Assembly: GCF_023276355.1 (NCBI RefSeq)
Contig: NZ_JALLPL010000001.1
Location: 1 to 64,000, forward strand
Origin: Haloplanus sp. XH21
GTDB taxonomy: Archaea > Halobacteriota > Halobacteria > Halobacteriales > Haloferacaceae
Direction of reading: 5' to 3'
DNA: 64,000 nt
The position numbers and the translations under genes are program-made. Within the stretch, counting starts at the first letter, position 1. Each line of letters opens with the position of its first letter. Of this stretch, positions 58,042-61,996 are shown piece after piece. The notes beneath the pieces were generated by a model. It searched no databases. It was not told the origin of the DNA and worked only from the letters and a program-made list of their open reading frames with translations.

Positions 58042-60231
58042 ATGGGCCGACGAAAGAAGATCGTACAAGAATGTGAGCGATTGATGGACAAACCGGAGAA
58101 CATCCGGAACATCGCCATCGCCGCTCACGTCGATCACGGCAAGACGACGCTGACGGACAACCTGCTGGCCGGGGCAGGGATGATCTCGCAGGACACCGCG
58201 GGCGAACAGCTCGCGATGGACACGGAACAGGACGAGCAGGAACGCGGCATCACCATCGACGCCGCGAACGTCTCGATGACGCACGAGTACGAGGGCGACA
58301 ACCACCTCATCAACCTCATCGACACGCCGGGCCACGTCGACTTCGGTGGCGACGTGACCCGAGCGATGCGCGCCGTCGACGGCGCGCTGGTGGTCGTCGA
58401 CGCCGTCGAGGGCGCGATGCCCCAGACGGAGACGGTGCTCCGGCAGGCGCTCCGCGAGGGCGTCAAGCCGACGCTGTTCATCAACAAGGTCGACCGCCTC
58501 ATCTCGGAACTGCAGGAAGGCCCCGAGGAGATGCAGGAGCGACTCCTCTCGGTCATCCACGACGTGAACGAACTCATCCGTGGCATGACCGAGGAGATGG
58601 AGGACATCGACGAGGACTGGACGGTTTCCGTCGAAGGCGGCACCGTCGGGTTCGGATCCGCGCTGTACAAGTGGGGCGTCTCGATGCCCTCGATGCAGCG
58701 GACGGGCATGGACTTCGGCGACATCATCGACCTCGAGCGCGCGGACAAGCGCCAGGAACTCCACGAGCGGACGCCGCTCTCGGACGTCGTGCTCGACATG
58801 GTCTGTGAGCACTTCCCGAACCCCGTCGACGCCCAGCCCCGCCGTGTCCCGCGCATCTGGCGTGGCGACGCGGACTCCGACATCGCCGACACGATGCGAC
58901 TGGTCGACGAGGACGGCGAAGTCGTCATGATGGTTACCGACATCGGCGTCGACCCCCACGCGGGCGAAATCGCCGCTGGACGTGTCTTCTCCGGCACCAT
59001 CGAGAAGGGCCAGGAACTCTACGTCTCCGGGACGGCCGGCAAGAATCGCATCCAGAGCGTCGGCATCTACATGGGTGGCGAGCGCGAGGAAGTGGACCGC
59101 GTGCCCGCCGGCAACATCGCCGCCGTCACCGGTCTCAAGGACGCCATCGCCGGCTCCACCGTGTCGAGCGTCGAGATGACGCCGTTCGAGTCCATCGAGC
59201 ACATCTCGGAGCCCGTCATCACGAAAAGCGTCGAGGCGAAGAACATGGACGACCTGCCGAAACTCATCGAGACGCTCCAGCAGGTCGCCAAGGAAGACCC
59301 GACCATCCAGATCGAGATCAACGAGGAGACGGGCGAGCACCTCATCTCCGGGCAGGGTGAACTCCACCTCGAAGTCATCGGGCAGCGCATCGAGCGCAAT
59401 CAGGGCATCCCGATCAACACCGGCGAACCCATCGTCGTCTACCGCGAGGCCCCGCAGCAATCCTCACAGGAAGTCGAGGGTGTCTCGCCGAACCGCCACA
59501 ACAAGTTCTACATCACGGTCGATCCCCTCGACGAGGACATCGTCGACGAGATCCAGATGGGGAACGTCTCGATGGACATGCCCGAACTGGAGCGCCGTGA
59601 GGCGCTGCAGGAGGCCGGCATGGACAAGGACACCTCCCAGAACGTCGAGCAGATCCACGGGACCAACATCCTCATCGACGACACGAAGGGGATTCAGCAC
59701 CTGAACGAGACGATGGAACTCGTCGTCGAAGGGCTGGAAGAGGCGCTCGACGACGGCCCGCTGGCGGCCGAACCCGTCCAGGGCGCACTCATCCGCCTGC
59801 ACGACGCGCGTCTGCACGAAGACACCATCCACCGTGGCCCGGCACAGGTCATCCCCGCCGTCCGAGAGGCCGTCCACCGCGCGCTGATCGACGGCGAGAT
59901 CCGCCTGCTCGAACCCGTCCAGAACGTCCGCATCGACGTTCCCTCGGAACACATGGGTGCGGCGTCTGGCGAGATCCAGGGCCGCCGTGGCCGCGTCGAC
60001 GACATGTACCAGGAGGGCGACCTCATGGTCATCGAGGGCATCGCGCCCGTCGAAGAGATGATCGGCTTCTCCTCGGACATCCGGAGCGCCACGGAAGGCC
60101 GTGCCTCCTGGAACACCGAGAACGCCGGCTTCCGCGTGCTCGCTGACAACCTCCAGCCGGAGAAGATCAAAGAGATCCGCGAGCGCAAGGGCATGAAGCT
60201 GGAACTGCCGCCGTCGGTCGACTACATCTAA
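58042..60231 (+). CDS. fusA: Translation elongation factor aEF-2
   Basis: The 729-residue GTPase moves tRNAs and mRNA through the ribosome. It has G1 Ala-His-Val-Asp-His-Gly-Lys-Thr-Thr (about residue 29), G3 Asp-Thr-Pro-Gly-His-Val-Asp-Phe (94) and G4 Asn-Lys-Val-Asp (151). The diphthamide histidine lies in Asp-Thr-Ile-His-Arg-Gly-Pro-Ala-Gln (about 596). Length is normal and no intein is present. About 125 bp of gap and a leader ORF separate it from the ACT/hom operon. Confidence 0.97.
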
Positions 60232-60328
60232 CCCGGCGCGGCTCCGTTTCCGCAGACGTTCTCCCGCACGCCGTGATGGACATCCGCGAAGTGACCGAGC
60301 GTTCGGTGCGAGCGACGACCGATGCAAT

Positions 60329-60336
60329 CATATACC
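60329..60336 (+). promoter_or_regulatory. TATA element of the leader-ACT-hom transcript
   Basis: CATATACC is centred about 25 nt before the ATG at 60357, so transcription is predicted to begin at that ATG (leaderless). The 60352 ATG is only 20 nt away and is less likely. Confidence 0.65.
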
Positions 60337-60356
60337 TTCTTTCCACAGTGTATGGT

Positions 60357-60473
60357 ATGCCTCGCGGCACGACTACCGACAGTCGACGTGTCGGCACGGA
60401 GCTACCCCGCGGCCCCTCCCCGTCGCCGATCACAATTATTCCGACGGGTCGTGCCGCGGGGGTGACGGCCTGA
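60357..60473 (+). CDS. 38-residue Thr/Ile-rich leader ORF before the ACT-hom operon
   Basis: The leaderless ATG opens 38 codons; the TGA is followed directly by the ACT-gene ATG (TGAATG). Seven of the 38 residues are Thr (T5, T6, T7, T14, T26, T30, T37) and three are Ile (25, 27, 28), including Thr-Thr-Thr and Ile-Thr-Ile-Ile. The Ile-Thr-Ile-Ile codons include ACA and two ATT, uncommon in this GC-rich DNA. Thr and Ile are end products of the pathway controlled by hom. Product function is inferred as a regulatory leader peptide; it has no recognisable domain. Confidence 0.55.
   Translation: MPRGTTTDSRRVGTELPRGPSPSPITIIPTGRAAGVTA
60360..60461 (+). promoter_or_regulatory. Candidate attenuator: mutually exclusive stems in the hom leader
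   Basis: Segment A (60360-60373, CCTCGCGGCACGAC) pairs with segment D (60448-60461, GTCGTGCCGCGGGG) over 14 bases with one G-U. Segment C (60405-60412, CCCCGCGG) pairs perfectly with the right part of D (60454-60461). A small stem (CCGACA 60376-60381 with TGTCGG 60389-60394) lies between. D overlaps a Shine-Dalgarno-like GGGGGTGA (60458-60465) 8 nt before the ACT-gene ATG. The stems therefore compete and could hide that site. Confidence 0.5.
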
Positions 60474-61046
60474 ATGGCTGACGACGCCGTCACCACCGAC
60501 GAACTCGAGGAGGAGCGCACCGACGGCGGTGAGCGCCCCCAGACCCACACTATACGGCTTGAGCTACAGGACAAGCCGGGCGAACTGCTGTCGGCGCTGC
60601 GTCCCATCGCCGACAACGGCGGCAACCTGCTCTCGATATTCCACGAGCGGGGGAACCTCACGCCACGTGGTCACATCCCGGTCGAGGTGGACGTGGAGTG
60701 TCCGCCGGACCGCTTTGACACCATCGTGGAGGCGCTCCGCGACGAGGGCGTGAACGTCATCCAAGCCGGTGCCGAGCGATTCGGTGAGGAGATGGCGCTC
60801 CTACTGGTCGGCGACATCGTCGATACCGACTTGTCGGATACGCTCCGACGCATCGAATCGAGTACCGACGCGACGCTCGCGGACCTGTCGCTGTCGGCGC
60901 CGGAAGGACGCGACGGCGCGTCGAGCGCCCGCCTGCGACTGGCGACGCGAACCGGGCGCACCGACGAGGTGTTCGCCCACGTCCGCGACATCGCCGAGGA
61001 GAAAGACCTCGACGTGATCGAACCCCTCCTGGAGGTGGCGGAATGA
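60474..61046 (+). CDS. ACT-domain amino-acid-sensing protein
   Basis: The 190-residue protein has an acidic N-terminal tail and two ACT-type folds (about residues 26-95 and 105-185; Leu-Gln-Asp-Lys-Pro-Gly-Glu-Leu-Leu, Gly-Gly-Asn-Leu-Leu-Ser-Ile). ACT domains bind amino acids and regulate enzymes. It lies 4 bases overlapping before hom, so it probably provides in trans the regulatory domain that many homoserine dehydrogenases carry on the same chain. The likely ligand is threonine or a related product. Translation is expected to couple to the leader ORF. Confidence 0.85.
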   Translation: MADDAVTTDELEEERTDGGERPQTHTIRLELQDKPGELLSALRPIADNGGNLLSIFHERGNLTPRGHIPVEVDVECPPDRFDTIVEALRDEGVNVIQAGAERFGEEMALLLVGDIVDTDLSDTLRRIESSTDATLADLSLSAPEGRDGASSARLRLATRTGRTDEVFAHVRDIAEEKDLDVIEPLLEVAE

Positions 61047-61996
61047 GCCTTCGACTCGCCGTCATCGGCGTCGGCGCAGTTGGTCGTTCCGTCGTCGAAC
61101 TCGCGCCGGAGTACGGGCATCGCGTGACGGCAGTCGCCGACTCCAGTTCGGCGGCCGTCGATCCGAACGGCCTCGACGCCGACGCGGTGTTCGAGCGCAA
61201 GGACCGGGAGGGCGTCGTCGGCGACGGCGACCCGGCGGACGCCCTCGCGGCCGACTACGACGTCCTCGTGGAGGCGACGCCGACGACGCTCGGCGACGCC
61301 GAACCCGGGTTCTCACACGTCAAGGCGGCGCTGGAGCGGGACCGCCACGTCGTCCTGGCGAACAAGGGGCCGGTCGCCGAGCGGTACGCCGACCTGATGG
61401 CACTCGAACGCGAGAGCGAGGGGGCAGTGCAGTTCGAGGCGGCTGTCGGCGGCGCTATCCCCATCCTCTCGACCATCAGCGACTTCGGGCCGAATCAGAT
61501 CACGGCGGCCCGCGGCGTCCTCAACGGCACGGCGAACTTCATCCTCTCGCGGATGGCTGCGGAGGGGCTGGGGTACGAACACGTCCTCGCCGAGGCCCAG
61601 GACCTGGGCGTCGCCGAGGCGGACCCCGCCTTCGACGTCGAGGGGACCGACGCGGCGCTGAAGTTCGTCATCCTGGCGAACGTGCTCAGCGACGGAGACC
61701 AAGTGTACAGCCTCGACGATGCGCGAGTCGAGGGCATCCGCGACATCCCCGCGAGCGCGCTGGATCTGGCGGCCGAAGACGGCCGGACGGTTCGCCTGAT
61801 CGGCGAGGCGACCGCCGACGGCGTCCGGGTCGGCCCGCGGCTCGTCCCGAAGCACGACGCCCTCTCGGTCACGGGCACGCGAAACATCGTCCAGTTCGAG
61901 ACGGTCAACGCCGGACAGTTGCACCTCAGCGGACGGGGGGCCGGCGGCCCCGAGACCGCGACGGCCATCCTCTCGGACGTCGGGCGCCTAGAGTAG
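61043..61996 (+). CDS. hom: Homoserine dehydrogenase
   Basis: The 317-residue protein reduces aspartate semialdehyde to homoserine, the branch to threonine, isoleucine and methionine. It has Gly-Val-Gly-Ala-Val-Gly-Arg-Ser-Val (residues 8-16), Ala-Asn-Lys-Gly-Pro-Val-Ala (about 109), Ala-Ala-Val-Gly-Gly-Ala-Ile-Pro-Ile (133) and Gly-Val-Leu-Asn-Gly-Thr (155). It lacks a C-terminal ACT domain, which is encoded separately just upstream. It overlaps the ACT gene by 4 bases. Confidence 0.95.
   Translation: MSLRLAVIGVGAVGRSVVELAPEYGHRVTAVADSSSAAVDPNGLDADAVFERKDREGVVGDGDPADALAADYDVLVEATPTTLGDAEPGFSHVKAALERDRHVVLANKGPVAERYADLMALERESEGAVQFEAAVGGAIPILSTISDFGPNQITAARGVLNGTANFILSRMAAEGLGYEHVLAEAQDLGVAEADPAFDVEGTDAALKFVILANVLSDGDQVYSLDDARVEGIRDIPASALDLAAEDGRTVRLIGEATADGVRVGPRLVPKHDALSVTGTRNIVQFETVNAGQLHLSGRGAGGPETATAILSDVGRLE

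Follow-up and report, generated by a model that had tools for sequence, protein, structure and literature searches.

A short open reading frame (ORF) in front of the operon for an ACT-domain protein and homoserine dehydrogenase is described here as a leader that probably, if far from certainly, senses threonine and isoleucine and acts mainly on the translation of that operon. The DNA analysed was a single haloarchaeal stretch of 64,000 nucleotides, referred to here as the window, with a GC content of 65%. Comparison with related haloarchaea supports the promoter geometry, the keeping of the reading frame, the in-frame enrichment of Thr and Ile codons and a constraint at the RNA level; what we infer is that amino-acid supply is sensed, which way expression responds, and that the RNA acts as a switch.

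The leader ORF (60357-60473; all leader and operon features given here are on the forward strand) lies between fusA (58042-60231), its 5' neighbour, and the ACT gene, and consists of 38 codons followed by a TGA. Reading from ATG 60357 gives the peptide MPRGTTTDSRRVGTELPRGPSPSPITIIPTGRAAGVTA, with seven Thr and three Ile codons. The TATA box of the leader promoter, CATATA (60329-60334), was found 28 nt upstream of this ATG. Codons 5-7 are all Thr (ACG ACT ACC, 60369-60377), and codons 25-28 form an Ile-Thr-Ile-Ile block (ATC ACA ATT ATT, 60429-60440) holding the proposed regulatory codons. The TGA (60471-60473) directly abuts the ATG of the ACT gene (60474-61046; Pfam PF01842, E 2.5e-6), the first gene of the operon, which shares an ATGA overlap with the homoserine dehydrogenase gene, hom (61043-61996; Pfam PF00742, E 1e-48). 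An SD-like run, GGGGGTGA (60458-60465), lies within the leader ORF with its 3' end 8 nt from the ACT start. A preliminary description of this DNA had proposed the TATA box, the ORF with its Thr and Ile codons, the contact of stop and start and an SD-like run overlapped by a pairing segment, D (60448-60461), and all were found as placed. It had also called ACA and ATT uncommon; over 1.26 Mb of the genome they make up 4.2% of Thr codons and 8.9% of Ile codons, respectively. The leader frame stays open in the 5' direction as far as GTG 60273 (66 codons), and this extension (60273-60356) starts before the TATA box.

We found the ACT gene in 79 named haloarchaeal contigs, in 12 genomes of the window genus and in 170 family genomes drawn from 28 genera, and read the upstream DNA at 169 loci, covering approximately 25 of the 28 family genera and several other families. 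At 140 loci a TATA-like box was present 28-31 nt 5' of an upstream ATG; in the relatives the box reads TTATA(A/C/T) and lies mostly at 28-30 nt. The ORF from that ATG ends at the start codon of the ACT-hom operon in 139 of the 140 (the loci come from related genomes and do not count as independent events), and at the one exceptional locus the leader frame continues into the ACT gene. Each of the two alternative frames, read from the same point, ends at the ACT start far less often, in 29 and 28 of the 140 loci (about 20%). Offsets between stop and start among the 139 were -1 (97 loci), -5 (29), +3 (11) and +4 (2), and the leader ORFs were of 36 different lengths, from 24 to 210 nt, with the frame kept through all of them. 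Because a frame kept over so many lengths is hard to explain otherwise, the leader is likely translated up to the ACT start, and the conservation of its frame across loci is strong. The same comparison supports the promoter geometry of the leaderless start that had been proposed, and leaderless mRNAs account for 72% of protein transcripts in Haloferax (PMC4983044). Natrialbaceae loci (L008, L010, L014, L019 and others) carry a short leader of 13-15 codons, MTTCGRPQAGGDGDG-like, that overlaps ACT with an offset of -5; many of these short leaders have Thr at codons 2-3.

Substitutions in the leader and in the ACT gene were compared over the same 37 disjoint pairs. The pN/pS ratio was 0.95 for the leader and 0.08 for the ACT gene, and changes at the first, second and third codon positions numbered 185, 192 and 177 in the leader (an even distribution) and 98, 54 and 832 in ACT. 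A functional small protein was rejected on these two measures. Third-position identity within the genus was 0.90 in the leader versus 0.66 in ACT. As judged from these substitutions, the leader peptide is not kept as a protein and its RNA is constrained at all positions, a pattern that a leader ORF coupled to an RNA switch should show, but that other RNA elements should show equally. One such element would be a structured RNA binding a metabolite or a protein (for example, the ACT protein), in which case the ORF would be there by chance. Third-position conservation far above that of the ACT gene and the conservation of the GGCACGGAG and ACAACA motifs are in keeping with an element of this kind, which is nevertheless considered very unlikely: the frame survives 36 lengths, no fold is common to the clades, and Rfam models gave no riboswitch or T-box match at the leader, only the flanking tRNAs and one chance match. 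The leader-ORF reading was favoured because the frame is kept and the Thr excess is in-frame.

Threonine and isoleucine are the end products of the homoserine dehydrogenase branch. In the window ORF alone the Thr excess is modest and only suggestive (P = 0.0065 for at least seven Thr, P = 0.003 for at least ten Thr plus Ile), and significance comes from the relatives. Codon statistics were compiled from 46 representatives of low mutual similarity. Thr accounted for 14.4% of their leader codons versus 6.6% in nucleotide shuffles (sd 0.6; highest of 2000, 8.8%), with 5.8% and 8.0% in the other two frames and 6.1% in the genes of this genome. Thr-Thr was present in 33 of the 46 representatives, versus 6.5 expected. 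In an alignment of 94 leaders, codon 5 is Thr in 69. The preliminary description had made its reading depend on a Thr/Ile codon bias in relatives, and this bias was found; an adjacent leader ORF enriched in end-product codons, as in the attenuator class, is thereby present at the locus.

The leaders of the family follow the pattern M-x-T-G-T ... R-R-I-G-T-E ... P/S-T-T-(T) ... E-V-x-R-stop. In the Thr block ACA supplies 126 of 136 Thr codons, versus 4.2% genome-wide. The Thr/Ile block is located 8-14 codons 5' of the stop in most clades, and 17 and 26 codons in two. Its place reads ACA ACA (ACA) in most other genera and Ile-Thr-Ile-Ile in the window genus, in XH8 and in genus g6, while in genera g2 and g20 the blocks of related species vary, some being Thr-rich and others Ile-rich. 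Examples of a Thr-Ile swap are ACA GCC ATC versus ACA ATT ATC (L118 and L119) and ACA ACA ACT GTC versus ACA GGG ATT ATC (L173 and L174). Extra Thr codons occur in genus g14 and in L176 at places that hold no Thr in other clades. Several observations weigh against sensing. Few or no Thr codons were found in the leaders of Halosimplex, Natronomonas and Haloarcula, short Thr-less leaders occur in several families, and the Thr block of Halorubrum is far from the SD. Part of the Thr pattern may also reflect RNA constraint, since the identity of the Thr codons is nearly fixed (ACG or ACA).

The leader could also be a uORF that delivers ribosomes without sensing anything, feeding the SD-assisted ACT start by termination-reinitiation, with Thr as a by-product of conserved RNA. 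An SD-like run lies within the last 22 nt of the leader in 140 of 146 leader loci, and this, the stop-start overlap at nearly all loci and the short leaders devoid of Thr would suit such an arrangement; delivery mediated by uORFs is discussed in PMC12548453. It leaves unexplained the in-frame Thr enrichment, the swaps between Thr and Ile at one place and the lineage-specific extra Thr codons, and a direct leaderless start is easily evolved, as at the Halorussus and Haladaptatus loci, where the leader is missing and the TATA box stands immediately 5' of the ACT ATG. Delivery without sensing is accordingly rated as unlikely. The overlap or contact of stop and start together with an SD, as in translational coupling by termination-reinitiation, is present at the locus. 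Overlapping genes of Haloferax are coupled in this manner (13 of the 14 pairs tested were strictly coupled), and the SD serves haloarchaea for reinitiation at overlaps and not for first initiation (PMC6728339); this counts in favour of the preferred reading, that of a sensing leader acting on translation, as well.

Other genes of amino-acid synthesis were screened for a comparable leader ORF, which was counted in 0/18 cases at thrC, 0/18 at ilvB, 2/18 at lysC and 2/30 at trpC; the lysC uORFs have 15 codons, with one Thr in one of the two. A general feature of amino-acid genes was rejected for lack of comparable leaders at these four. A scan of 1.26 Mb of this genome gave five further TATA-led uORFs in contact with a gene start, where shifting the position of the box gave 0-3, and none of the five is evidently related to amino acids; the scan excludes leaders in the gene's own frame, and the ACT leader is therefore unlisted. 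TATA-led uORFs of 15 codons, MFGYPSDSVEDPRCV and MLGHPSDTVEGPRCA, end beside the start of lysC (aspartate kinase) in L341 and L342, two genomes of the window genus.

The pairings that had been pointed out within the leader are present in the window. Segment A (60360-60373), which contains Thr codon 5, pairs with segment D over 14 bases with one G-U, and segment C (CCCCGCGG, 60405-60412) pairs perfectly with 60454-60461, the right part of D. A third possible partner of D is segment B (GGCACG, 60393-60398), within the conserved GGCACGGAG motif, so that in the window genus all three segments would compete for D. Folding of 60357-60490 in silico gives a structure that includes the A-D stem (-61 kcal/mol, z -1.8, equalled by 7 of 200 shuffles), so that the window leader appears only somewhat stable in this model; a further hairpin, 60420-60425/60442-60447, is predicted with the Ile/Thr codons in its loop.

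Stems were compared in the 12 genomes of the genus and the outgroup XH8 (13 sequences). Of the 14 A-D pairs, two sequences keep all, nine keep 13, one keeps 12 and XH8 keeps 11. One two-sided change was seen (L086, GGCATGAC/GTCATGCC), with G-U intermediates in L083, L090 and L091, and C-D retains 8/8 pairs in all 13 sequences, two of them with a G-U. Among the representatives A matches D from the same species better than D taken from another (z -6.1, as against -3.0 when A is reversed and 0.0 for B), and a version with longer segments agrees. Across the same representatives the A-D and A-SD pairings are no stronger than in dinucleotide shuffles, and the structural part of the reading was downgraded because of this. 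Pairing segments beyond the genus differ by clade (GGGCACG/CGTGCC in Halorubrum, CGGACACGG/CCGTGTCCG in g14, TCCCGAC/GTCGGGA in Haloferax), as do the folds, and one common consensus fold for all clades was not obtained. On these alignments the stems are plausible, not proven, with no single universal fold; the pairings of the switch proposed among A, C and D are kept in the genus and XH8, and beyond the genus become dependent on clade, at no more than shuffle strength. B-D as a conserved stem was rejected, having neither within-species fit nor co-variation. Conservation of the GGCACGGAG motif reaches from the window genus as far as Halobacterium and Halobium, and the motif does not co-vary with D.

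In the preferred reading, that of a Thr/Ile-sensing leader, the mRNA of the ACT-homoserine dehydrogenase operon would begin at the leader AUG or within a few bases of it, and ribosomes would translate the Thr/Ile-rich leader, whose stop codon meets or overlaps the start of ACT. A shortage of charged tRNA-Thr or tRNA-Ile would slow ribosomes on the Thr/Ile block, and the resulting change in the fold of the leader RNA would change translation of ACT-hom. The likeliest direction would be upward, as the SD and start region would no longer be paired with 5' leader sequence, and an increase upon stalling would be the sensible direction for a biosynthetic operon. Strict coupling by itself predicts less, not more, expression upon ribosome stalling, and this is a point against the preferred reading.

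Alternatively, stalling on the leader or its untranslated state might decide whether the polymerase stops before or within ACT, either through a fold or through polarity of the FttA type. This has its precedent in bacterial thr/ilv leaders, and FttA is credited with archaeal polarity (PMC12548453), but no intrinsic terminator (stem plus T-run) was found in 60230-60700 and it is the SD, and no terminator, at which the stems end; attenuation at the level of transcription is regarded as quite unlikely. With the SD inside the leader, the Thr/Ile block close before it and no terminator in the scan, control of translation is the better fit. The attenuator reading put forward in the preliminary description found support from comparative genomics in its leaderless geometry, its frame and its codon enrichment, together with the absence of such leaders at the other amino-acid genes examined, and only partial support in its A/C/D switch.

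Like the bacterial thrL/ilvL attenuators, the haloarchaeal leader is a short ORF with Thr and Ile codons before a homoserine dehydrogenase operon, with a peptide poorly conserved outside these codons and with RNA segments that may compete. Unlike them it is archaeal, has a leaderless 5' end, overlaps the start of the first gene with its stop, and carries an SD inside the ORF and no terminator stem with T-run; by analogy it resembles the bacterial thr/ilv leader in logic and falls outside that class for want of the terminator. In bacterial translational attenuators of the erm/cat type a leader ORF is combined with a stem, and stalling frees the hidden SD of the next gene. The haloarchaeal leader ORF and stem could hide the next SD in the same way, but it would respond to amino-acid supply where those leaders respond to an antibiotic, and its stop overlaps the start. 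The coupled overlapping genes of Haloferax volcanii (PMC6728339) likewise have an ATGA overlap and an SD at the downstream start; their upstream ORF is a functional protein, unlike the fast-evolving, short, Thr/Ile-biased leader. Table 2 of PMC4983044 likewise lists uORFs, small ORFs ahead of genes in Haloferax volcanii that lie within long 5' UTRs; it gives them no function, describes no cognate codons and does not include hom. The uORFs listed there for HVO_A0127 and HVO_2948 precede a tryptophan-tRNA ligase and pheS.

A literature search, which covered few subscription papers and is weak evidence, found no archaeal amino-acid leader peptide. The chances are about even that the leader is a leaderless Thr/Ile-sensing switch that would be the first archaeal amino-acid attenuator described, evolved apart from the bacterial thr leader, working on translation via the overlap with the first gene and swapping codons between end products. 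A response to Thr or Ile would mean that control by ribosomes sensing amino acids also arose in archaea, on leaderless mRNAs. The leader is carried by Haloferax species, for example as MRTGTSPDSCRVDAEPRLSHASPTTSSGRPTEVGR (L114, assigned to genus g9 together with the named Haloferax larsenii L004), which provides a ready test system.
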